This document shows positions 38,305-49,993 of a stretch of 50,220 nucleotides of DNA, piece by piece. Under the pieces are notes generated by a model. The model was not told the origin of the DNA, searched no databases, and worked only from the letters and a program-made list of their open reading frames with translations. Every line of letters starts with the position of its first letter. Position 1 is the stretch's first letter. Source of the DNA: Pseudobdellovibrionaceae bacterium (GTDB lineage: Bacteria > Bdellovibrionota > Bdellovibrionia > Bdellovibrionales > Bdellovibrionaceae); NCBI GenBank assembly GCA_030158485.1, contig JAOASS010000007.1:1-50220 (forward strand). Reading direction: 5' to 3'. The position numbers were made by a program, and so were the translations under genes.

Positions 38305-39678
38305 ATGATGCGCGCTCTCTTGACCTCTTTTAAGAAAATTTGGAACTTAAGAAACATGCAAAAGTCATTCAAAAGCTCAGCTTCTCCTCTCAGGGAAACT
38401 CAAAGTCAAAGAAAGTCACACTCAAGCTCTTATCTTGTTTTATTTGGTGAACTCTTCTCTCGTGGATATGCAAACGGTTTAGTCGACGAAGCGACACAAC
38501 ATGGTTACAAAATTGTCAAAAGCACAGTCGGAAGAAGAGACCTTGAACAAAAACTAAGACCACTTCTTGAATCTGAAAAGCCTACTGACTGTGACGCTTT
38601 TATCAACGTCCCTCTTGAAGCCGGTTTCGATATGGAAAAAGATAGCGACGGCTTAAGTCCCGTTGATCGCCTTAAAGAATTGGGCCTTAAAGACTGGGCT
38701 GATTTTAAGTGGCCAGGTCATTCGTTAGAACAATCTCAAAAAAAAGGCCATGAACGATTTCGACAAAGTGTAAAAGATTATATTAAAGAACTCGAAAAAA
38801 TAGTTCCAACAAAAGAAACTCATCTTCTTTTCGCTCATCTCATGGCTGGCGGAGTCCCAAGAGCTAAAATTGTGATGCCACTTATGAATCGAGTTTTTAA
38901 AGGAACTGGCGATCGCTACATGCCCAGTTCTGAATTCTGGAACTCTTCTATTGGCGAACTTTGTGCACTTAACTTTAACGAAGTAACGGCTTATACTCTC
39001 GACATTTTAATCGAAGAAACGACAGACCTCAGACAAAGAATTGAAGCTTCCGGTGGTCACGTCTCTTATGTCGCCTATGGCTACCACGGAACCGAAGTTT
39101 GGATTGGAACAAATTTAGAATGGCAAAGCTATTCTCCTTATTTGCAAGGTTATGCAAAAATTGAACTCGAAAATGTTTCTCAAAAATGGTTTGATCAAGG
39201 TGTTAAAACTTGTGTTTACAACTGCCCTGAAATTTTGACTAATTCGAGCTCCATTTTTCAAGGGGTCGAAGTCGCTCTTTATTCCCTGATTCGAATTTTT
39301 CAAAAAATGTACCCGGAACATGGCCGAACTCATCGCCTCATACACGAAACGACACAATTACTTAAACAACCCCAGCTTTTAGAAAAAATCTACACGCTTG
39401 TTGATGATTTTTATCAAGATCCAGAAGTTAAAAAAACTGTTGATTATGCCCATTGGCCCTCGCACAGCACAAAATACCAGCTTGAAAAATTGCTGGGAGT
39501 ATCTCATGAAATTGTTGATTGTCATCAGAACGACAAAAAGCTAATGGTCGGACTCATGAGCGAAATTGTTTTTAATTCCTGCGGTTGGGGAATGTTTCAT
39601 GACTCCTACAAACCCGAAAAGGCGGTCCGCTGGATCGGACATGATTTCGTGGCATTTGCAGAAGTGGGAAAAAACTAG
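38305..39678 (+). CDS. Rossmann-like protein, possibly FabMG-type enoyl-ACP reductase
   Basis: A cytoplasmic 457-aa protein. After a basic, Ser-rich 40-residue start it shows a Rossmann-like beta-Gly-helix opening (YLVLFGELFSRGYANGLVDEA), then KSTVGRRDLEQ and VSYVAYGYHGTEVW. This pattern recalls a poorly studied group annotated as FabMG-type enoyl-ACP reductases, but I am not certain and the catalytic residues cannot be placed with confidence. The last third is helical and contains VDYAHWPSHSTKY. ATG 38305 has a GGAAA purine run upstream; an inner ATG 17 codons later is also possible. It follows waaA by 92 nt, so a link to envelope lipid synthesis is plausible but inferred. Confidence 0.6.
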   Translation: MMRALLTSFKKIWNLRNMQKSFKSSASPLRETQSQRKSHSSSYLVLFGELFSRGYANGLVDEATQHGYKIVKSTVGRRDLEQKLRPLLESEKPTDCDAFINVPLEAGFDMEKDSDGLSPVDRLKELGLKDWADFKWPGHSLEQSQKKGHERFRQSVKDYIKELEKIVPTKETHLLFAHLMAGGVPRAKIVMPLMNRVFKGTGDRYMPSSEFWNSSIGELCALNFNEVTAYTLDILIEETTDLRQRIEASGGHVSYVAYGYHGTEVWIGTNLEWQSYSPYLQGYAKIELENVSQKWFDQGVKTCVYNCPEILTNSSSIFQGVEVALYSLIRIFQKMYPEHGRTHRLIHETTQLLKQPQLLEKIYTLVDDFYQDPEVKKTVDYAHWPSHSTKYQLEKLLGVSHEIVDCHQNDKKLMVGLMSEIVFNSCGWGMFHDSYKPEKAVRWIGHDFVAFAEVGKN

Positions 39679-39773: not shown

Positions 39774-41450
39774 GTGAGCATCATAAAAAAGTTATTGATT
39801 GTGCCTTTTCTGTTTTTTTTATGGGCACCTTATTGCCTATTCGCAGCCGAAAAAAAAGGCCAGCCTCTTTTATTTCCTGCTCAACAAAATAATATAAAAG
39901 TATTGCCGCAAAAATTTGAATACAGCTTACGTGATGCTTACAGGTTTTTATTGGGTAACCGAATTATCGATACTTCCCATTTTGAATTTCAACTGAACCC
40001 AAATGACTCTTCTCTTCAAGTTGATATGAAATGGCCTGAAAACATATTTTCCAGTGGCACCCTGAGCATTCTTAATCCCTCTGGTGTTGCCACATGGACA
40101 ATAAGTCTGCAGAAAAATCAAAACTTTATCAGTATTCCCAAAGCCAATTTTCTAATTGAAAAACTTTTAGGACTTTCATTTTTTAAATTCTGTATCAGCC
40201 AATATGAACTTAATACCGGTATGGAAATCTGCTCTCCGGAATTAATTGCGAAAGGTTCTGGTCGAAAATTGCGGATCGAAAGTAAGCCTTATCCCAATAA
40301 ACCTAGGATACAAATTAATGGTCGCGCAGTCACTCCCCATGGAATCGTGTTTTTGAATGATGAAAATGAAAGTTTATCTTTCAGAGCGATTGCCGCATCA
40401 GGGGCTGAATTTAAAATGGACACCAGAAGTATCAAACTCGATTTTTTAGATATCATAAATGTTAATGAAGCCCTGATGTCGATAACGGTAAAAGGCCCAT
40501 TCCCCTTAGCCCCGGCTCAATACAAAATTATAAAAGATGACATTTGGAGCGTCAGTCTTAAAAAAGATCGGGCCCTGATTTATATTGCGGGAGAAGGAAA
40601 AGTCCCCCTGAGACAAGAATTTGTCGTTGAAGGCCCCCTTCCTTCTGAAGAAAATCGTCTTTATTTAGAAAATACTAGTCCTACAAATGCCTATGCTTCA
40701 AGCCTAGAGCTTCGGGGTTGGGCACCACAAAAAGGAGTTCCTCAAGCATCGGATCCAGCTTCAGAAGTTTCTGTTTTTGGAGATCGATTTGCGTGGTCAT
40801 TAAAAAGCTTGAGCGTGGGTAAAAGTAAAATGTCCACGATACAAGTTGCAGATGGTAAAGAAATATTCACAGCTGGGTATTCATTTTCGAGAGCTTATTC
40901 CAGACGAGTCGAACTTCTAGGGGGAATCAACACATTCAAAAGCAATCTTTACTTTGGGGCTGAAGCGCAATCCTGGCTAGAATCGTTTTCTTTATTTTCA
41001 AAACTCAGTCAGCAAAAAATAGGTATAGGGTTCATCTACAATCAAGATATAACCGGAGATACAAAAACTGCTTTGATCGAGCTTGATCTTTACTGGCGAA
41101 TAAAAAAAGGGCTACAAATGATAGACCCTTCATTTTATGCAGGACTGGGATTACAAAGTCTGACATATGAATCACAAAGTTTACAAACTTTAGCTCCTTT
41201 CGTTGGATGGTTCGGACCCTCTTTTAAAAAAATGAAATATTTTAGCTGGCAAGAAATCTATTTCAAACAATCACTTCCTGCCAAAACAACAAATCTCGAT
41301 TTAAAATCCAAAACAGAGCTCAAATGGAAACTTTATCGCCCATTGAAAGAACAACGCCAGATTCGCTATTCAGTTGGTTTTTTCAACGAAGAATCGACAG
41401 TCAAAAGATCAGGTGCGCTGCTTGAAGCGGCTTGGGTCATGGTTTTTTGA
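39774..41450 (+). CDS. Secreted, probably outer-membrane beta-barrel-ended protein
   Basis: I do not recognise a named family. A GTG start with AAGGA about 8 nt upstream gives a signal peptide (about 1-24, ending LFAAEK). The middle (about 55-330) looks like beta-sandwich repeats (GTLSILNPSGVATWTISL; LRGWAPQKGVPQ), perhaps surface or periplasmic domains. The last 200 residues alternate amphipathic strands (LYFGAEAQSWLESFSLFSKL; IGIGFIYNQDITG; YSVGFFNEESTV) and end AAWVMVF with a terminal Phe, which fits a BAM-inserted barrel. It stands alone between the Rossmann-like gene and the signalling locus, converging on the REC-DUF4388 gene 22 nt away. Confidence 0.72.
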   Translation: MSIIKKLLIVPFLFFLWAPYCLFAAEKKGQPLLFPAQQNNIKVLPQKFEYSLRDAYRFLLGNRIIDTSHFEFQLNPNDSSLQVDMKWPENIFSSGTLSILNPSGVATWTISLQKNQNFISIPKANFLIEKLLGLSFFKFCISQYELNTGMEICSPELIAKGSGRKLRIESKPYPNKPRIQINGRAVTPHGIVFLNDENESLSFRAIAASGAEFKMDTRSIKLDFLDIINVNEALMSITVKGPFPLAPAQYKIIKDDIWSVSLKKDRALIYIAGEGKVPLRQEFVVEGPLPSEENRLYLENTSPTNAYASSLELRGWAPQKGVPQASDPASEVSVFGDRFAWSLKSLSVGKSKMSTIQVADGKEIFTAGYSFSRAYSRRVELLGGINTFKSNLYFGAEAQSWLESFSLFSKLSQQKIGIGFIYNQDITGDTKTALIELDLYWRIKKGLQMIDPSFYAGLGLQSLTYESQSLQTLAPFVGWFGPSFKKMKYFSWQEIYFKQSLPAKTTNLDLKSKTELKWKLYRPLKEQRQIRYSVGFFNEESTVKRSGALLEAAWVMVF

Positions 41451-41472: not shown

Positions 41473-43458
41473 CTACCCAGCTTTTTTCTTAAAAAAACCT
41501 GCAACAACATCTTTTAAATCCATGTTAAAGACATCTTGTTTTGGAGTATTTTTAGCGCTGTCGAGCATTGATAGTTCACGCTTAGGAGCTATAAAGCTTG
41601 GGTCAATGGCTTGGGATTTTTCAAATGATTTCCTTGCATTAACAAAGTCACCTTTGGCTTTTTGATAAAGACCCATAACAAATGGATATGTTGCATCATA
41701 TCTTTCATCTGGTGGTACTTGCATCAACTCCAATTCAATTTCTTTTAGTTGAAATACTTTTTTATTGGGATCGACTAATCCTAATTGTCCCCAGGCTTTG
41801 CAAACACGCAAGCCTGCTGCAGAAGGAAAAATTTTAGCCACTTCATTTAAAATTTCCATTGCTTTGGCATAACGATTCAACTGAAGTTGAACTTTTGACT
41901 CATCCACCATTCGGATTGCTTTAATTTTACGTTCAGAATTATCTTCTTTTTTAATCGAAGTTACTTGCGTATCCGTTTCGCTCCAGTGGATTCTGAGGGC
42001 CCGATCAAATTTATCTTTTACACTTTTCCAAAGCTTTAGAACGTCTTGATCTTGCGGGGCAGGACCTATAAATTTCATTAATTCATCAAGCCATTCAGTT
42101 TCATGTTTTGAAGCTAATATTTCTTTAAAAAGCTCTAGGACTTCACTTGATTCTTTGTTGTTAATTTGATCGTGAAGTTTTTTGACGTGCTGTTTCTGAG
42201 CACTCGCATCAAGTGAAACTTTTTCCGATGAAAATATAATAAGCCCTTTGAGTAGCAATAAATGTAACGCTTTGTAAATCGAAATAGCGTCGTAGCCTTC
42301 AATTGTTAAGAGCTCATTGATATTGGCACCTTGAGTGATTTTTTCTGGAAGATTTTTTAAACGTTTTAAAAATGATGTTTTTAAAACTGCATGTTCATCT
42401 TTCCATTGTGAACTTTTTAAAATTTTTTGACCTGACCACATAAGATAAAGGGATTCAAGCCAATTCAATGGAATTTTTGAAGCCACCCAGTCATGCAAAT
42501 ATTCCGTCAACTGATCAGAGTCAATTGACGGAGATATTTCTTCCACTTCTGTTGAAACAAAATTGACTCTCACTTTACCATCAATAATGGTTCTTGTCAG
42601 ACGAACGTTCATTTGTTCATTTAAGATCATATCAAAAGCGTGGGGACTTAACTTAGAAGCTTCAATCAGCTTTTGACCAATTCGCCTAGGACTTTTATCA
42701 TTTAAAATCTCTTTTAAATCTTGCGGCGCTAAATATCCGCTTTGTATCAACATATGACCTAAAAATGTTGATTGATCTTCAACATCAACACCCACAATTG
42801 CACCTTGAAAAAAGGTAACTCCAGAAACAACTCCACCTTCAGTGAATATGTTCAAGTGTCCTGAAGTTTTTGTTTCAGCTAACAAGCTGTAGATAAAAGG
42901 CAGATCATAACCATCGACTTCTTCAAGAGACTCAATAAGTTTTCTTTTTTCTCGTGGCGAAACTTTTTCTTTTTCAAATATTTCGTAAAGATTTTTTCTT
43001 GCACTTTCCTGAAGTGAATCTGATGTTGCCGAAACCGTTTGAACTTTTACAATATATTGATCGAGCTCTTCTAGCTGAAATGGTTTTTTTAGAAAACCGA
43101 TTGCTCCTGTTTCACTTAGAGCTTCATTTTGAAAAGTTTTATCTGTATAAATACCACTCATCAAAATAAATTTTGTCGTGCTTTCATCTGGAATTTCTTG
43201 TCTGATTTTTTTGATTAAATCAATTCCTGTCATTTGCGGCAGTAAACAATCTGTTAATACGTAATTAAAAACTTGCTTTGTCATGAGCTGAAGAGCTTCC
43301 TCTGGCTTCATAACGTGAAATACGAAGTGGCCCTTGCGCGTTAAAGCTTCTCTTAAGCTTGCGCCAAGATGAGCATCATCTTCTATGACTAAGATTTTAA
43401 AACCGACTTCTGCCACGATTAAGTATCGGTTAAAGGGAACCTTTTTTAGAGTCTTCAT
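41473..43458 (-). CDS. Response regulator with REC, DUF4388 and TPR-like parts
   Basis: An N-terminal receiver domain (about 20-140) with the acidic pocket E26-D27-D28, phosphoacceptor D70 (VLTDCLLP), S101 and K125 (FLKKPF), all intact. A DUF4388-like (PATAN) region follows at about 190-310 (SGHLNIFTEGGVVSGVTFF; GRxLIQSGYL-type segment), then a helical linker and TPR-like repeats (about 535-650, GLYQKAKGDFVNARKSFEKSQAIDP). It would be phosphorylated by a histidine kinase and act by protein contact, as there is no DNA-binding domain. It is the third gene of the leftward operon, 29 nt after the STAS gene. Confidence 0.88.
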   Translation of the reverse strand: MKTLKKVPFNRYLIVAEVGFKILVIEDDAHLGASLREALTRKGHFVFHVMKPEEALQLMTKQVFNYVLTDCLLPQMTGIDLIKKIRQEIPDESTTKFILMSGIYTDKTFQNEALSETGAIGFLKKPFQLEELDQYIVKVQTVSATSDSLQESARKNLYEIFEKEKVSPREKRKLIESLEEVDGYDLPFIYSLLAETKTSGHLNIFTEGGVVSGVTFFQGAIVGVDVEDQSTFLGHMLIQSGYLAPQDLKEILNDKSPRRIGQKLIEASKLSPHAFDMILNEQMNVRLTRTIIDGKVRVNFVSTEVEEISPSIDSDQLTEYLHDWVASKIPLNWLESLYLMWSGQKILKSSQWKDEHAVLKTSFLKRLKNLPEKITQGANINELLTIEGYDAISIYKALHLLLLKGLIIFSSEKVSLDASAQKQHVKKLHDQINNKESSEVLELFKEILASKHETEWLDELMKFIGPAPQDQDVLKLWKSVKDKFDRALRIHWSETDTQVTSIKKEDNSERKIKAIRMVDESKVQLQLNRYAKAMEILNEVAKIFPSAAGLRVCKAWGQLGLVDPNKKVFQLKEIELELMQVPPDERYDATYPFVMGLYQKAKGDFVNARKSFEKSQAIDPSFIAPKRELSMLDSAKNTPKQDVFNMDLKDVVAGFFKKKAG

Positions 43459-43487
43459 GTCTCAAACTGAAACATGAATCACGACTT

Positions 43488-43964
43488 CTAGACTTTTGAC
43501 TTAATAAATTTAAAATACTTGGATTCGATAATATCCATTTCCATTGTATTACCGGTTTCGTCTTTAACTTCTGAAGGCGGCTGAACTTGGCCTTCTTTAA
43601 ATTCAACACCGTAACGGAATAAAATATTTTTTTCAGCACCTGAGTCTTCATTATAATAAGGAACGTAAAAGGACTCGACTTGCGCGAAAGCTGGAAGAAA
43701 GCCGTCAACCATATTCATTTGATCGACAATTACTTTGGGGCATTTAGCATAAATTACTTTCGCTGAGGAGTTAGCTCCAATCCATTTAATCCATTCACGA
43801 ATACCACATGAATTGATACTCTTGATGGCATCCAAATCAATTTTTACTTCATGTGCTCCATTAATTGCCAGGGGCGCAAAATCAGCATCCTCGTCAATAA
43901 TTCCACCTAGTTGAAGAGTCAGCTTAGGACCTTGTCGATCGACTTTACATTGAAACTTGCTCAT
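43488..43964 (-). CDS. Divergent STAS-domain protein (anti-sigma antagonist-like)
   Basis: A 158-aa protein whose first 110 residues fit a STAS domain. The strand-helix step KSINSCGIREWIKWI (from about 48) aligns with the phosphorylation loop of SpoIIAA-type antagonists; the acceptor would be S52, in N-S-C-G where the classic loop is D-S-S-G. The C-terminal 45 residues are polar and outside the STAS fold. It overlaps the phosphatase gene by 20 nt, starting with GAGGT 8 nt before the ATG, so the two are translated together. It is a natural substrate for that phosphatase; no anti-sigma kinase is encoded nearby. Confidence 0.75.
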   Translation of the reverse strand: MSKFQCKVDRQGPKLTLQLGGIIDEDADFAPLAINGAHEVKIDLDAIKSINSCGIREWIKWIGANSSAKVIYAKCPKVIVDQMNMVDGFLPAFAQVESFYVPYYNEDSGAEKNILFRYGVEFKEGQVQPPSEVKDETGNTMEMDIIESKYFKFIKSKV

Positions 43965-45816
43965 TGGCGCTTACCTCTTGGTTTGATTCTTCTTTATTTT
44001 TCACTATGAAAAAGGTGAGGTCATCAGCTAATGTTGTGCCTTGACGATAGACCTGAAATGATTCGCAAAAATGGGATAAAGCTTTATAACTTTGGGTTGA
44101 AGTATTAAGTGAAGCTAAAAGACCCTTAATAAATTCTCTTTCACCCCATGCTTCATTTTGAGGATTCCGAATATCTGGAACGCCGTCCGTGTAAAAGAAA
44201 ACAAGATCTCCCTTTTCCAGTTGAATTTTTGTTTCCTGATACTGAGAATCACGACTTTGACCCAGGCGAGGGTTATTATTCTGATCTAAAAGCTCGATGT
44301 CTTTCTTTTTGTAGGGACCTTCTTTTTTCCTGAATAAAAAAGGAGCTTCATGGGATGCGTTGCAATAAACTAATTCATAAGTTTTGATATTTAATTTTCC
44401 TAAGAAAAAAGTCATCATCACTTTTCCTCTTGAAACGTCAAAAATACTTTTATTTAATTCTTGCAGTGCTTGTCCTGGGCTGAATCCTAAACTTTCAATA
44501 AGACCCGCTGCCGATTTTGCAGCACTCGTGATCAAAGCCGCACCAGCTCCGTGTCCGGTGGCATCACCGATCCACAAATAAACGTGGTCATCAATTCGAG
44601 TGTAACTCCACCAATCCCCGCCCACTTCACTGGCTGGCTCGTAGAAACCTGCAATTTCGATTGTTTCAAAGTCGGCGCGCGGTGCGGGAAATAAAGTTTC
44701 TTGAACCATTCGAGCCGTTTGAAGCTCACTTTCCATTCGGGCCTTTTCTGCCGTTTGCAGCATAAGTCTTGAAACCTCAGCCGCCATCTTATTAAAATTC
44801 TGTGCTAATGCACCGACTTCATCATTCGATTCAACAACAACTTGGACGTCAAAGTGACCTTTTGTCACTTCACCCGTTGCTTCAAAAAGTTTAGTTAAAG
44901 CATGGGTCAATGTACTGGAAGCAAAAAGACTTAAAATAGTCGTGGCTGATATCAAAACAACTAAAAATAACAGAGATTTTCTTTTAAGAATTTCAACGGC
45001 ACTGAGTGCGTTAATTTCAGTGACAGTTGAAATAACATATAAATCTCCCCAGCCAACAGAAGCATAGGAAACAAGTCGATTCGCGCCTTGGTTATCTTTA
45101 ATTGTCTCAACACCACTTCCAGAAGCTTGCTTGTTCAAATCTAAAAAACGAACAGGCAAAGTATCTTTTAAATTCTGGCCTAAAGAATTTTCTGGACCTA
45201 AAAGAATTTTTCCACTTTTTTGTATGAGGTAAAAATTTTGTGCTGATTTAGTTTGAAACTGTTGGGCCAGATCACTGAGTTGAAATAAAAGCACGACAAG
45301 ATATGGCCTTCCTTCAGGTCTCTCAATTTTTTGAATAAGCGTAAATCGATCGTCTAAAAATGGATTTGTAACGACAGTCTCGTTCATAAAAAGCTGGACT
45401 AAATTAGGATTCCACTGTCCCTTCCACAACATCCAAAATTTTTCAAATCCGTAAGCTTCTTTTTCTAAAACAGGCCCCACTTTATAGCTGGATGTTTTTT
45501 CATCCCAAACCATGATGGCCATCGCCTGAAGTGAAGAATCGAATTGAAGAAACGCGCGTGATAATCGACTGAAGTCTTGGAACTGACCTAAATCTTGTAA
45601 AATAGGTTGTGTCAATTTAACTATGTTATCCAACCTGGTTTTCAATTGCCCAGCTATGGAACTTGACATCTGGCTTGTTGTGTCGAAAACGTAAGCCACT
45701 TTGTCATCTTTAAATACTTTCAAAGCTATGGCTAAGTAAACTAAAAGTGCCACTGCCGGCATCACTGTCAGAATTAAAAGAATCTTATAACGAATTGAAA
45801 GTTTTGAAAGACTCAC
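43945..45816 (-). CDS. Membrane-bound SpoIIE/PP2C-type serine phosphatase with HAMP
   Basis: Sensor phosphatase. Transmembrane helix 1 (about 12-32), a periplasmic sensor of about 240 residues (possibly CACHE-like), transmembrane helix 2 (about 280-302), a HAMP domain (about 303-355, LTKLFEATGEVTKGHFDV) and a coiled linker precede a C-terminal SpoIIE-type PP2C domain. Metal-binding Asp residues are in EVGGDWW, IGDATGHG, YTDGVPD and LADDLTFFI. It should remove phosphate from a STAS-type partner in response to an envelope signal. GTG 45816 has AGGAAA upstream. It is the first gene of the leftward operon and is divergent from the FecR-domain gene. Confidence 0.93.
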   Translation of the reverse strand: MSLSKLSIRYKILLILTVMPAVALLVYLAIALKVFKDDKVAYVFDTTSQMSSSIAGQLKTRLDNIVKLTQPILQDLGQFQDFSRLSRAFLQFDSSLQAMAIMVWDEKTSSYKVGPVLEKEAYGFEKFWMLWKGQWNPNLVQLFMNETVVTNPFLDDRFTLIQKIERPEGRPYLVVLLFQLSDLAQQFQTKSAQNFYLIQKSGKILLGPENSLGQNLKDTLPVRFLDLNKQASGSGVETIKDNQGANRLVSYASVGWGDLYVISTVTEINALSAVEILKRKSLLFLVVLISATTILSLFASSTLTHALTKLFEATGEVTKGHFDVQVVVESNDEVGALAQNFNKMAAEVSRLMLQTAEKARMESELQTARMVQETLFPAPRADFETIEIAGFYEPASEVGGDWWSYTRIDDHVYLWIGDATGHGAGAALITSAAKSAAGLIESLGFSPGQALQELNKSIFDVSRGKVMMTFFLGKLNIKTYELVYCNASHEAPFLFRKKEGPYKKKDIELLDQNNNPRLGQSRDSQYQETKIQLEKGDLVFFYTDGVPDIRNPQNEAWGEREFIKGLLASLNTSTQSYKALSHFCESFQVYRQGTTLADDLTFFIVKNKEESNQEVSANEQVSM

Positions 45817-45923
45817 GTTTTCCTAGGCTCTCATGATCTTTCGTCGAGCGGGAGAATCTCAGGACTTCTCCTGGACCTTTTAGTGTCAATATTATTCACA
45901 ATATTTCCGAAATACTAAAGTAG

Positions 45924-47648
45924 ATGAAGCTTAATAAAATTGAAAAAAGACTCTTTGTCTTCTGTAGTTTGCTGATAATCGTTTTTTCGTATTTGTTATA
46001 CGACGATTCAATTTTATTATCTAACCGGGAAAGCCTCAATGCCCCGATTGCTGAATTAATTGAAAGAAATAAAGATGTTCGACTTAAAATGAATGAAAGC
46101 TTCAACTGGGCTCCAGCCCGAACAAAAGAAAAGCTTTTCCCCTTTGACAGTCTTTTTACAGGTGAAAATTCAACTGCCGTCATTAAATTAGACGACGGCA
46201 GTATTTTAAGAATCGACGGTCAGTCGCTGATTGTTATGTCGATGTACCAGGGACAACTCGTACTTGATCTTAAGTCGGGATCTCTATCCGGAGATCTAAG
46301 CCAAAACTCGAAGCTCCTATTAAAAACAAAAGATGGATTCCAAAATTTGAATGGCACGGATGGAAAAAAATTTCGTTTCGAAAAAGATTTCGCAGGTCAA
46401 ATTCTTGAAAAACCAAGTCGAAATATCGCATCTCAAAAAAATCAGTTAATTTGGGAAAGTCCCCGGTTTTTTAAATTGAATAAACAAGATCCCCGGACTT
46501 ATCAAAACTTAAGTTGGGTTAAATCTGGAAATATTGAAGAAACAATTGTTGAGATTTCAACAAATCCAAATTTTGAAGTTATTGATCGACAAATTAAAAC
46601 TGTACGAAACGATTCCGGAATTCCCATAGAACTACCTGACGGCAAATACTATGTCAGACTTAAAGGTTATTCTAAAGATCGAAAATTAACCGCCACTTCA
46701 AACGTGAATTCTTTTGAAATGTTTGATCAAAAAAGAAGTCTCTTGCCGGCTCCTATTTTGATTACAAAAAATATTGCTCACTCGGATTCTTACAATTTTC
46801 CTCCTGTTTTAAAATGGGAAGCGGTTACTTCAGCAGAAAACTATCAAATTGAAGTTTCCGATACTCCTCGATTTGAACAAGTCAAACGCTACGAAACAGG
46901 ACAATCATTCTATCCGTGGAATGATTTTAAACCAGGAACATATTTTGTGCGACTTTTTAGTCAAAACAGCGACTCTAAAAGTGAGCCCAGTGATATTGGA
47001 ACAATTGAAGTTTCTTCTCTTGCGCCAAACCTAGAACCTATTCCTGCGTTGTTGATCAGGTCTCGAGAAAAAAATGTGGGAACTCAAGATGTGAAATTAC
47101 GCTGGCAGCATTCCGGGAAACAAGCCAAATACAGAATTGAAGTTTCGAAAGATGGAACATTCCGTGATGCACAAGTCGTTGAATCAATTCGCGGCCCCGC
47201 TTCGCTGAATGTAAAAAATCCTGGTGATTACTATGTTCGGGTTTTCGCTGCAAACGAAGACGGCTTTCCAATTAGTCCGTCTTCTAATATCGAAAGATTT
47301 AGTTATGACCTTAGAAATCCTTTAGAAACTCCACAGCTGATACGACCCTTCAGCGAAACGACTGTTTTTCTACAAAAAGAAGACAATCCTTATCTGTGGC
47401 TCGACTGGAAGCCCGTTCTAGATGCAACACTTTTCGCAATCCAAATTTCTTCAGATCCTGAATTCAACAATATTATTTGGGATGAAAAAACAGATCGAAA
47501 TCGATTTTTGGTAGAAAAAAGAATTCCCAACGGAAGATATTACTGGCGGGTTAAAGCCAAAGCCGACAAAGATGAAACTGATTCTGATTGGTCTACACCT
47601 AATCGATTTTATTTGGTTTATAAAAAGAAAGACATTTTTTTCGAATGA
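45924..47648 (+). CDS. FecR-domain membrane protein with four fibronectin-like repeats
   Basis: One N-terminal membrane anchor (about 8-25) leaves the rest in the periplasm. A FecR-type domain follows (about 46-125, AVIKLDDGSILRIDGQS; LDLKSGSLSGDL). Four repeats then occur at about 195-268, 295-364, 388-462 and 490-568. Each carries a W...Y-x-IE-(V/I)-S-x-(D/N)-x-x-F strand pair and a G-x-Y-Y-V-R-(V/L) strand with a later S(D/E)PS/SDWS turn, a fibronectin type III-like pattern. In iron signalling FecR links to a sigma factor; none is present here. Instead its stop overlaps the kinase start (ATGA, 47645-47648), which suggests it feeds that kinase. Confidence 0.85.
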   Translation: MKLNKIEKRLFVFCSLLIIVFSYLLYDDSILLSNRESLNAPIAELIERNKDVRLKMNESFNWAPARTKEKLFPFDSLFTGENSTAVIKLDDGSILRIDGQSLIVMSMYQGQLVLDLKSGSLSGDLSQNSKLLLKTKDGFQNLNGTDGKKFRFEKDFAGQILEKPSRNIASQKNQLIWESPRFFKLNKQDPRTYQNLSWVKSGNIEETIVEISTNPNFEVIDRQIKTVRNDSGIPIELPDGKYYVRLKGYSKDRKLTATSNVNSFEMFDQKRSLLPAPILITKNIAHSDSYNFPPVLKWEAVTSAENYQIEVSDTPRFEQVKRYETGQSFYPWNDFKPGTYFVRLFSQNSDSKSEPSDIGTIEVSSLAPNLEPIPALLIRSREKNVGTQDVKLRWQHSGKQAKYRIEVSKDGTFRDAQVVESIRGPASLNVKNPGDYYVRVFAANEDGFPISPSSNIERFSYDLRNPLETPQLIRPFSETTVFLQKEDNPYLWLDWKPVLDATLFAIQISSDPEFNNIIWDEKTDRNRFLVEKRIPNGRYYWRVKAKADKDETDSDWSTPNRFYLVYKKKDIFFE

Positions 47649-49588
47649 GTCTGAATTACGCTTTATTTGACCCTTTACTTGAGCCTGTTTACATTCTGAA
47701 TTCAGATTGTAAAGTTATTTATTGCAATGAAGCGGCGGCTTTATTGATTTCGTCGTCAGTCAGAAAAATTATGAGATCTCAGCCTTTATTTATTGAGCTT
47801 TTTCAATTCAGTGAAAAAATTGAAGCCTTGGAAAATTTAGTCCAAATTCAAGATCCAACTCCCTATAAGGAAGTAAACTTCACGACAACAGAAGGCCTCA
47901 GCGGAAAAATTCAAATTACAATCCAGAAATTACCAGAAGCTCTTCATTGGATTACTTTTATTCGTGATGTGACACTCGAAGAAAGGCTTCAAAACAAATA
48001 TCGTGCAGAATTGGACGCAAAAGAAGGGGTTATCGAAGAACTCAAAACAGCTCAAGCCGAACTGGAAAACTATTCTCGTAATCTTGAAAAGATGGTGGAA
48101 GATAGAACTGCAGAAATTCGGGGATTGAATCAAAAATTAAAAGCTCTACTCGATAGCTTAGATCAAGGCTTTTTGATTTTTGATGAAAATGGACTTTGTT
48201 GGGAAATAACTTCTAAAGCTTGCGAAACTGTTTTAGAGACTTCACCTGCTGGAAAAAAAATATGGGATGTTTTAAAACTTCCTGAAAATGAAGTTCGTGG
48301 TTTTTCAAGGTGGCTGACAACACTTTTTTCAGAACTTCTTCCATTCGAAGATCTTTCTTGCTTAGGTCCTGCACAATTTCCGCACAGCCAGGGTCAACAA
48401 GTCAAACTCGATTACTACCCGATTCGTAATGCTGAAAACAGAATCCAAGGGGTTGTTCTTGTTGCAACTGATATTACTTCTTTAATCAGAGCGCAAGAAG
48501 AAGCTGAAAAAGAAAAAGCCCATGCTGGGTTTATTCTAAAAATGTTCAAACAAAAAAAGTCGTTTCTATCATTTTTCGAAGAATCTCAAAAACTTATGTC
48601 GGAATTAAATCGTGTGACACTGTCTCCACCTTCTTCTTGGGACCGTGATGTTTTATTCAGAATACTGCATACAATCAAAGGCGGTGCGGCTAGTTTTTCA
48701 GTGCGTGACGTGGCTCATTATGCTCATGAATTAGAAAGTGTTATTCAAAATTGGGATCAGTTTAATGAATCGAAATGGGATCAGTTCATGGAGAATCTTC
48801 AGCTGTGTTTTACTCAGCTCAGCCATGACGTCCAGAATCTTTTAGGAAAATCTCCTACTCATCAAATTCCTGTAGTTGAAATAGCTAAGCCCGAACTTGT
48901 TCAAATACTTTCTATTATGGGAGCTTGGTCTAAAACTCGAGATTGGGCAGAACAATTAACAGCCCACTACCTAACTGAGCCTCTGACTCAAAGCTTCGAA
49001 TCCTATGATTACTTGATTCAGCAAACCGCTACCTCTCTGAATAAAAAAGTAAAGCCGCTTCATTTTATAAATCCTGAATTTCGCTGGAATTTTGAACTGT
49101 ATCAATCTTTTGCTTCAACTCTTGTGCACGTATTTCGGAACGCTGTTGACCACGGACTTGAAAGCCCCGAAGAAAGAATGGCTGCTGGAAAGTCAGAACA
49201 AGGTGAGATTTCAATTTATGCTCAACGAAATCAAAATGAAATTGAAATTCGTATCGCAGATGATGGAAAAGGAATTCCAATTGAAAAAATAAAAGCTCGA
49301 AGAAGTGAAAAGGGTCTTCAAAATGAGAACTTGAGTGATCAACAAATTTTAATGACAGTTTTTGAACCTCAATTTTCAACACGCACTGAAGTGACAGACA
49401 TTTCAGGAAGAGGCGTCGGCCTAGATGCTGTTAAAACAGAACTTGAAAAAATGGGTGGAAGTGTTCAAATTGAATCTATTATAAATAGGGGAACGACTTT
49501 CATTTTCAAATTGCCGCATCCGACTTCTGCCTTGATGCCTGCAATAACAATCAATTCACAAACTGAGCCTTTTAAGAAAGTAGCTTGA
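47645..49588 (+). CDS. PAS-PAS-HPt-CheA-type histidine kinase without a CheW domain
   Basis: A soluble 647-aa kinase. Two PAS-like domains (about 5-110 and 165-280) flank a coiled coil (about 118-166); an HPt domain (about 305-400) has the CheA-type phosphosite H342 (LHTIKGGAAS). After a linker comes a CheA-type ATPase with N box N499 (HVFRNAVDHGLE), G1 DDGKG (539-543) and G2 SGRGVGLD (587-594). The ordinary dimer H-box (HisKA) and the CheW-like P5 domain are both missing, so it would transfer phosphate like CheA but not join a chemoreceptor array through CheW. It has no transmembrane segment, so the coupled FecR-domain gene may be its sensor. The CheY-like gene ends next to its stop. Confidence 0.9.
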   Translation: MSLNYALFDPLLEPVYILNSDCKVIYCNEAAALLISSSVRKIMRSQPLFIELFQFSEKIEALENLVQIQDPTPYKEVNFTTTEGLSGKIQITIQKLPEALHWITFIRDVTLEERLQNKYRAELDAKEGVIEELKTAQAELENYSRNLEKMVEDRTAEIRGLNQKLKALLDSLDQGFLIFDENGLCWEITSKACETVLETSPAGKKIWDVLKLPENEVRGFSRWLTTLFSELLPFEDLSCLGPAQFPHSQGQQVKLDYYPIRNAENRIQGVVLVATDITSLIRAQEEAEKEKAHAGFILKMFKQKKSFLSFFEESQKLMSELNRVTLSPPSSWDRDVLFRILHTIKGGAASFSVRDVAHYAHELESVIQNWDQFNESKWDQFMENLQLCFTQLSHDVQNLLGKSPTHQIPVVEIAKPELVQILSIMGAWSKTRDWAEQLTAHYLTEPLTQSFESYDYLIQQTATSLNKKVKPLHFINPEFRWNFELYQSFASTLVHVFRNAVDHGLESPEERMAAGKSEQGEISIYAQRNQNEIEIRIADDGKGIPIEKIKARRSEKGLQNENLSDQQILMTVFEPQFSTRTEVTDISGRGVGLDAVKTELEKMGGSVQIESIINRGTTFIFKLPHPTSALMPAITINSQTEPFKKVA

Positions 49589-49993
49589 TTACTTCTTGTG
49601 CTTATCCCAAACAATTTTAAGCTTATCTTCGAAAATTTTTGCCGAGAATGGCTTCACCACATACTGTGACACACCCGAAAGAACAGCTTCCGTTACTTGT
49701 TCTCGTTCTGCTTCTGATGTCAGTAAAACAAATGGTAGATCTTTAAACTCAGCGCTTGATCTGACTTTTTTAAGAAGCTCAAGACCCTTTAGTTTTGGCA
49801 TGTTCCAATCCGATATCACAAGCTCAATGGGTTCTCCCGCTTTATGATGACGGTACAAAGCTTCAAGTCCGGCTTCACCATCTTCGGCTTCATAAATTGT
49901 TTTAAAACCCATCGTTTTAAGTTGCGACTTAACGAGGTCTCTGATGGAGGGCATATCATCTATTACTAAAATTCGTATTTCAGGTGCAAACAT
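49589..49993 (-). CDS. CheY-like single-domain response regulator
   Basis: A single receiver domain of 134 aa: acidic pocket D12-D13, phosphoacceptor D62 (ISDWNMP), T92 (LLTSEA) and K114 (VVKPF). The sequence is close to CheY of flagellar systems. Its stop is directly adjacent to the kinase stop, convergent, so the kinase is a likely phosphodonor though the two are on opposite strands. It starts 4 nt after the ChaN-like gene and may be co-transcribed with it. Output could be the flagellar switch or another protein partner. Confidence 0.93.
   Translation of the reverse strand: MFAPEIRILVIDDMPSIRDLVKSQLKTMGFKTIYEAEDGEAGLEALYRHHKAGEPIELVISDWNMPKLKGLELLKKVRSSAEFKDLPFVLLTSEAEREQVTEAVLSGVSQYVVKPFSAKIFEDKLKIVWDKHKK

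Follow-up and report, generated by a model that had tools for sequence, protein, structure and literature searches.

A putative Sia-like partner switch and its exchanged effectors in the Bdellovibrionota

How are a membrane phosphatase, a divergent STAS protein, a FecR-domain protein, a CheA-type kinase and two receiver proteins wired together when six adjacent genes encode them? The question is raised by positions 41473-49993 of a window of 50,220 nucleotides, the whole stretch of DNA that was analysed (Pseudobdellovibrionaceae bacterium, GCA_030158485.1, contig JAOASS010000007.1, positions 1 to 50,220, forward strand). A sequence-only reading had proposed that the kinase phosphorylates one or both receivers, that the phosphatase sets the state of the STAS protein, and that two envelope inputs are merged. 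The answer preferred here, given about an even chance of being right, is a partner switch of Sia type that feeds, in series, into a two-component output.

The six genes and their products

The features of the locus and its flank are as follows.

39774..41450, + strand: seventh neighbour, a signal-peptide protein, convergent with the REC-DUF4388 gene and linked in the Bdellovibrio family only
41473..43416, - strand: REC-DUF4388-TPR protein, start corrected from 43458, most likely to GTG 43416
43424..43449, - strand: promoter-like element CTAAA-N15-CCGATA of FliA/attack-phase type, just 5' of GTG 43416
43488..43964, - strand: divergent STAS protein, SpoIIAA/RsbV fold with a C-terminal extension, invariant Ser52
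43945..45816, - strand: membrane PP2C/SpoIIE phosphatase with two transmembrane helices, dCache-like periplasmic part, HAMP and PP2C; GTG start
45886..45912, + strand: weak FliA-like element TCAAT-N16-CCGAAA, 5' of the FecR gene
45924..47648, + strand: FecR-domain protein, periplasmic, Ig/fn3-like repeats, one N-terminal membrane helix, without a cytoplasmic domain
47645..49588, + strand: soluble CheA-type kinase (KIN), PAS-coil-PAS-Hpt(H342)-HATPase
47645..48049, + strand: N-terminal PAS domain of KIN, apparently dedicated to the locus; in different lineages it is attached to different effectors
49589..49993, - strand: CheY-like single-domain receiver; D13, D62, T92 and K114 invariant

All six reading frames are open at the coordinates and strands first assigned to them, except for the start of the REC-DUF4388 gene, and the divergent layout and both overlaps (20 nt between STAS and phosphatase, ATGA between FecR and KIN) were confirmed. 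The domains read from the translations were recovered by Pfam for five proteins and by a predicted structure for the STAS protein. The defence-system library matched a receiver domain only. Outside the locus, the window also encodes a FabMG-type enoyl-ACP reductase at 38305-39678 (PF22046, 2.9e-156).

The phosphatase comprises HAMP and SpoIIE/PP2C domains (PF07228, 9.9e-35) with two predicted membrane helices, and its metal-site residues D401, D418, D598 and D599 are kept in 63-64 of 64 relatives. Against the NCBIfam SiaA equivalog NF038263 it scores 60 bits where the cut-off is 700, which places it outside SiaA as that family is defined. The FecR protein shows FecR (2.6e-4), fn3 and other Ig-like matches in Pfam and a single N-terminal membrane helix within residues 6-33. 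The general expectation that FecR signals to sigma factors fits this protein badly: few of its residues are cytoplasmic, and Pfam and helix prediction revealed neither an anti-sigma domain nor any domain before the helix, so that it does not qualify as a FecR-type sigma regulator. The back-to-back arrangement of its gene with that of the phosphatase is deeply conserved, Bacteriovoracales included. The protein is the best candidate co-sensor of the envelope for that enzyme and by itself has no way into the cytoplasm. A search of the collection of genome contigs with the FecR protein returned no relative; a STAS profile search returned relatives. The seventh neighbour has no Pfam or NCBIfam match and usually accompanies the locus, in the Bdellovibrio family only.

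KIN contains two PAS domains, an Hpt domain (4.5e-12) and a HATPase domain (9.9e-21). It had been called soluble, which the prediction of no membrane helix confirms; the kinase being cytoplasmic, the merging of two envelope inputs finds no support. The proposed phosphorylation site H342 is real and invariant in 69 of 69 kinases, as are N499, D539 and G588 wherever the domain is present. The protein thus carries the Hpt (P1) histidine and the CheA-type ATPase (P4) by which a CheA is recognised, and no P3 dimerisation or P5 CheW-like domain was matched in Pfam. Its scores against the NCBIfam CheA models are 150-163 bits, with cut-offs of 793-950, and its ATPase is nearest to that of CheA. KIN resembles the CheA-CheY chemotaxis pair in its Hpt domain with HTIKGG, its CheA-type HATPase and its dedicated CheY-like receiver, and differs from it in having two PAS domains and in the missing dimerisation and CheW-like matches. 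A separate CheA-like protein is encoded elsewhere in the same genome.

The catalytic residues of the receivers are likewise kept. The CheY-like protein (REC 5.6e-22) has CheY as its nearest NCBIfam model, far below the equivalog cut-off; its D62, the predicted phosphoacceptor, is real and conserved in 57 of 57 relatives. The second receiver has a clear REC domain (8.5e-19), TPRs and a weak DUF4388 match (4.6e-5, 23.9 bits against a cut-off of 25). Its D70, numbered from ATG 43458 and equivalent to D56 when counted from GTG 43416, is conserved in all 53 proteins that have the REC domain. In one relative (L178, 5595-7540) the REC-DUF4388 protein is spread over three reading frames, which points to a broken gene or to assembly frameshifts.

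A partner-switch pair and its GHKL kinase

The STAS protein has no match in Pfam or NCBIfam, and a sequence search of solved structures yielded only a weak match to TM1442; the same search with a profile of the second protein discussed below, gene X, found nothing. Fold prediction was therefore used for both. The model of the STAS protein (pLDDT 91.8) has SpoIIAA, RsbV and TM1442 as its nearest solved folds (Foldseek E 3.7e-4, VIA Z 9-10), bearing out an assignment that the sequence libraries had left unsupported. Ser52 is invariant in 93 of 93 relatives, including lineages without X. It aligns, via TM1442, to the position of the phospho-serine in SpoIIAA and RsbV, and it is surrounded by NSCG in place of D-S-S/T-G. 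The window accordingly holds two of the elements of a partner switch, a PP2C/SpoIIE phosphatase and a STAS-fold antagonist with a serine at the phosphosite, the phosphorylation of Ser52 being predicted. By fold and conserved residues, the proposed phosphatase-STAS couple is a genuine pair of partner-switch type. Two STAS-family genes in tandem, near a weak match to X, occur outside the six-gene setting in L216 (8798-9929).

A partner switch also requires a kinase for the STAS protein. In many relatives a gene of about 230-310 codons, X, lies between the phosphatase and STAS genes. X has no Pfam match, and in its model (pLDDT 94) the C-terminal half resembles SpoIIAB (VIA Z 15.4, with 129 residues superposed at 2.0 A), RsbW (Z 13.5) and SiaB (Z 12.3), while most fold matches leave the N-terminal half uncovered. 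Its invariant residues are E145, N149, D191, G194, G226 and G228, the last two forming a G-rich box. Six loci of Bacteriovoracales type (L229, L233-L236, L239) encode X and the phosphatase as one fused protein, and in L214 the fusion partner of X is the STAS protein. These fusions and folds identify PP2C-X-STAS as a full partner-switch triad, in which X is, on its modelled SpoIIAB/RsbW fold, the missing switch kinase, with kinase activity predicted. The earlier reading overlooked this kinase, which is present in relatives and lost in the window lineage.

No X gene lies at the locus in the window lineage, in Bdellovibrio proper and in some other genera, so that the GHKL kinase of a partner switch is missing from the window. 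The rest of its own genome holds no close copy; the single distant relative of X is a 284-codon GHKL-type protein on contig 9, with 30% identity over about 130 residues and a profile E of 4.7e-29.

L156 2968-3822, about 58967-59821 of contig 9: X-type GHKL protein, adjoining an lgt-like gene

At the level of a guess, this protein is a candidate substitute for X in the window lineage. The contig-9-type protein of a Bdellovibrio relative (L159, 3944-5371) is longer and starts with a cyclic-nucleotide-binding domain.

The closest precedent is SiaABCD of Pseudomonas aeruginosa, in which SiaC docks on and activates SiaD (PMC7278518). Both systems combine a membrane HAMP-PP2C phosphatase, a GHKL kinase (X, with its Z of 12.3 to SiaB) and a switch protein like SpoIIAA with an effector enzyme encoded next to them, and several relatives of the window locus even have a GGDEF effector there. 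The window locus differs in that its effector is a CheA-type kinase with receivers rather than a diguanylate cyclase, in the added FecR and REC-DUF4388 proteins, and in the loss of X. Neither the STAS protein nor X matches the SiaC or SiaB families in Pfam, and the likeness of X to SiaB lies at fold level only. With the RsbU-RsbV-RsbW and SpoIIE-SpoIIAA-SpoIIAB systems the locus shares the PP2C phosphatase, the STAS protein with a conserved serine and, in relatives, the GHKL kinase fold; unlike them it has no sigma factor, reads NSCG in place of D-S-S/T-G, and its X is longer by an N-terminal half of some 100 residues.

Two further systems join histidine-kinase signalling to related parts. LvrA-LvrB-LvrC of Leptospira (PMC13269768) includes a protein whose Bergerat domain, similar to RsbW, follows an N-terminal domain, but LvrC is itself the response regulator, whereas the window locus has separate receivers and a phosphatase-STAS pair. 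RsfS-RsfR of Mycobacterium smegmatis (PMC10950880) likewise joins two-component signalling to a PP2C-STAS partner switch; there the kinase acts upstream and controls the phosphatase, whereas KIN is proposed to act downstream of the STAS protein. In searches of the freely accessible literature, no paper was found on Bdellovibrio with SpoIIE and STAS or partner switching, and none that described this gene set in connection with FecR, fibronectin and SpoIIE. The statement that no described system has this gene set agrees with these searches for the set as a whole, and SiaABCD, which the earlier reading had missed, qualifies it as a close precedent. The locus is built from known parts and would work like SiaABCD, yet it fails the Sia family tests; the swapping of its effectors is its most interesting trait.

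Conserved neighbourhood and exchanged effectors

The neighbourhood was surveyed in 80 related genomes, from which 60 regions were fetched. In the collection of named genomes, the 80 top-ranking relatives are almost all titled Bdellovibrionales, Bacteriovoracales or kin; Bdellovibrio bacteriovorus strain kdesi and Bdellovibrio sp. qaytius are among them. A record titled Streptomyces griseus MAG (L190) carries a Bdellovibrionales-type locus and is probably mislabelled. In a phylum-wide draw the STAS family was present in 131 of 192 genomes. The Bdellovibrio family keeps REC-DUF4388, STAS and phosphatase genes in one unit, FecR and KIN in a divergent one, and the CheY-like gene next to the latter. 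In a neighbouring family, a single operon runs PP2C-X-STAS-KIN-CheY-RECDUF, and the STAS and KIN reading frames abut or overlap in L118, L121 and L123. The two genes are adjacent in some lineages only, since most of the Bdellovibrio family has them on opposite strands with the FecR and phosphatase genes between. KIN and the CheY-like gene are kept or lost jointly in 34 of the 36 loci with enough flank. Because synteny extends through the Bdellovibrio family and the neighbouring family has one operon, the six genes belong together as one functional neighbourhood; the proposal would have fallen had relatives kept the genes apart, and they do not. In L119 and L224 the kinase adjoins REC-DUF4388 and the CheY-like gene is absent, a hint that REC-DUF4388 is a true partner of the kinase.

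The effector, by comparison, has been replaced several times. Pseudobdellovibrio-type genomes have lost KIN and the CheY-like gene and have a PAS-GGDEF protein encoded between FecR and the phosphatase; Bacteriovoracales-type genomes have a HisKA-HATPase-REC hybrid after the STAS gene. Generic ATPase similarity aside, what these effectors have in common with KIN is confined to its N-terminal PAS domain (residues 1 to 130), which has a characteristic C-terminal motif resembling DVTxExxLxxKYR followed by a coiled coil. A profile of this domain, run against the fetched reading frames, matched KIN, fragments of KIN and otherwise only effectors resident at the locus, while the second PAS domain of KIN matched none of these effectors in the same set. 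A whole-genome search of 12 genomes gave 18 matches to the KIN PAS domain; the best one lay within about 4.5 kb of a STAS-family gene in every genome, as did 14 of the 18 matches overall, and the attached outputs were Hpt-HATPase, HisKA-HATPase-REC or GGDEF. Proteins of the PAS-GGDEF type with a locus-type PAS also occur away from a known STAS gene (L270, 1459-2976; L271, 922-2364) and are possible extra effectors.

These patterns, drawn from sequence comparison, suggest that the PAS domain of KIN is dedicated to the STAS locus and is probably where the STAS protein docks, this part having been kept while the effector was exchanged across the phylum. Read most simply, and by analogy with SiaD and SiaC, this PAS domain would be the receiving surface for the STAS switch.

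Promoter-like elements, wiring and possible output

Attack-phase promoters of Bdellovibrio follow a FliA-type consensus, TTAAG-N16-CCGATA (PMC3627812), and FliA is essential in B. bacteriovorus (PMC5430801). This consensus was the one scored; the window genome encodes FliA and several flagellins, whose upstream regions gave no clear local FliA consensus. Before REC-DUF4388, 45 of 53 relatives have an element that ends 37-57 nt 5' of the IEDD codon; it scores at least 9 in 29 of 53, against 2.1% of random 140-mers. Upstream of FecR, a score of 9 of 11 is reached in 19 of 60 regions, whereas 2.6% of random stretches reach 9 or more. In both cases the loci counted are related and hence not independent. 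The REC-DUF4388 element is kept also in families with a different upstream gene. About 15 loci of Bdellovibrio relatives have TAAA-N16-GCCGATAA 5' of FecR, with 10-12 of 12 consensus positions. A FliA-type promoter 5' of FecR in the window itself did not rise above shuffles (8 of 12, p 0.68), which limits the claim to relatives. Upstream regions of the phosphatase, CheY-like, STAS and KIN genes showed no enrichment of the element. FliA/attack-phase promoter-like sequences thus precede REC-DUF4388 in most lineages and FecR-KIN in Bdellovibrio, a feature that the earlier reading had missed.

In the window, CTAAA-N15-CCGATA at 43449-43424 stands seven bases 5' of GTG 43416, and the mechanically assigned ATG 43458 lies 5' of it. 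With the promoter-like element so close, REC-DUF4388 probably starts at GTG 43416; the frame and domains first read for this gene stand, and its start most likely does not. The window transcript may be leaderless. In most relatives CCGATA is followed at 6-10 bases by a GTG or ATG, a spacing too short for a Shine-Dalgarno sequence, so a leaderless transcript is suggested across families.

The series model is built on domains and folds, on conserved residues and synteny, on the retention of the PAS domain when effectors are swapped, and on promoter-like elements; from these it predicts the signals, the contact between STAS and PAS, the partners in phosphotransfer, the kinase that substitutes for X and the output in physiology. 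An envelope signal would reach the periplasmic part of the phosphatase, perhaps also the FecR protein, and set phosphatase activity. The phosphatase would remove the phosphate from Ser52 of the STAS protein, and a SpoIIAB/RsbW-like GHKL kinase would restore it, namely X at the locus in many relatives and possibly the contig-9 protein in the window lineage. In one phosphorylation state the STAS protein would dock on the N-terminal PAS domain of cytoplasmic KIN and change its activity, and H342 would then pass phosphate to the CheY-like receiver, to REC-DUF4388-TPR, or to both. The output of REC-DUF4388-TPR would probably be motility or pilus control in flagellated attack-phase cells.

Some observations count against this series, among them the absence of X from the window genome and the separation of STAS and KIN in most of the Bdellovibrio family. 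One locus (L109, genome G009) keeps STAS, KIN, CheY-like and REC-DUF4388 genes without phosphatase, X or FecR, and would be a natural test of the model. Genomes G054 and G205 each have one locus-type PAS-GGDEF away from a known STAS gene, and the PAS-GGDEF gene of Pseudobdellovibrio-type genomes is not adjacent to STAS. PAS domains can bind ligands unaided, and the input linked to the PAS domain could come from FecR instead of STAS. The locus might also consist of two parallel arms, an arrangement near to that of the earlier reading, in which a PAS-sensing KIN signals to the CheY-like and REC-DUF4388 proteins and PP2C-(X)-STAS acts on an unrelated target, both being co-located for the same behaviour. 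KIN does have PAS sensors of its own, its unit diverges from the STAS unit in the Bdellovibrio family, and FliA-type elements occur only at the FecR-KIN and REC-DUF4388 units. However, independent arms do not predict that the PAS domain stays with the STAS locus while enzymes of other classes take the place of the remaining kinase, and the single operon of the neighbouring family speaks against them as well. As the PAS domain is tied to the STAS locus across quite different effectors, a link that the earlier reading overlooked, the series pathway is favoured, and parallel arms appear rather unlikely.

It is improbable that the switch serves a sigma factor, with X or its contig-9 relative as an anti-sigma factor freed by unphosphorylated STAS and with FliA or another sigma as client, looped with the FliA-type promoters of the locus. 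The SpoIIAB/RsbW fold of X agrees with this idea, as do the FliA of the genome, the elements flanking two units, and LvrC of Leptospira, a Rec-Bergerat protein proposed to be an anti-sigma factor (PMC13269768). No sigma gene lies in the locus, however, and effector swapping points to a protein-docking output like that of SiaC. FlgM, the normal anti-FliA factor, is encoded in the same genome and in 55 of 60 relatives, which makes an anti-FliA system unlikely and weakens the notion of X as a replacement for FlgM. Improbable to a similar degree is a decayed switch in the window lineage, where the STAS protein, unphosphorylated after the loss of X, would be a constitutive scaffold for the kinase. 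X is indeed missing from the locus and has no close copy in the genome, but the invariance of Ser52 extends to lineages without X, and the active-site residues of the phosphatase are kept.

Beyond the window, the series reading may be extended, tentatively and with somewhat less than an even chance, to one conserved STAS switch that would operate throughout the Bdellovibrionota and drive interchangeable effectors (CheA-type kinases, hybrid histidine kinases and diguanylate cyclases) through a dedicated PAS domain; under FliA/attack-phase control in the predators, it would act as a decision switch in prey search or prey contact. If this is true, the phospho-STAS switch would be a portable control unit, able to govern kinases as well as cyclases by way of one PAS interface. 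The control of attack-phase behaviour is so far poorly understood. Bdellovibrio bacteriovorus has this defined and genetically accessible predator pathway, by which the sensing of the envelope may be coupled to such behaviour.
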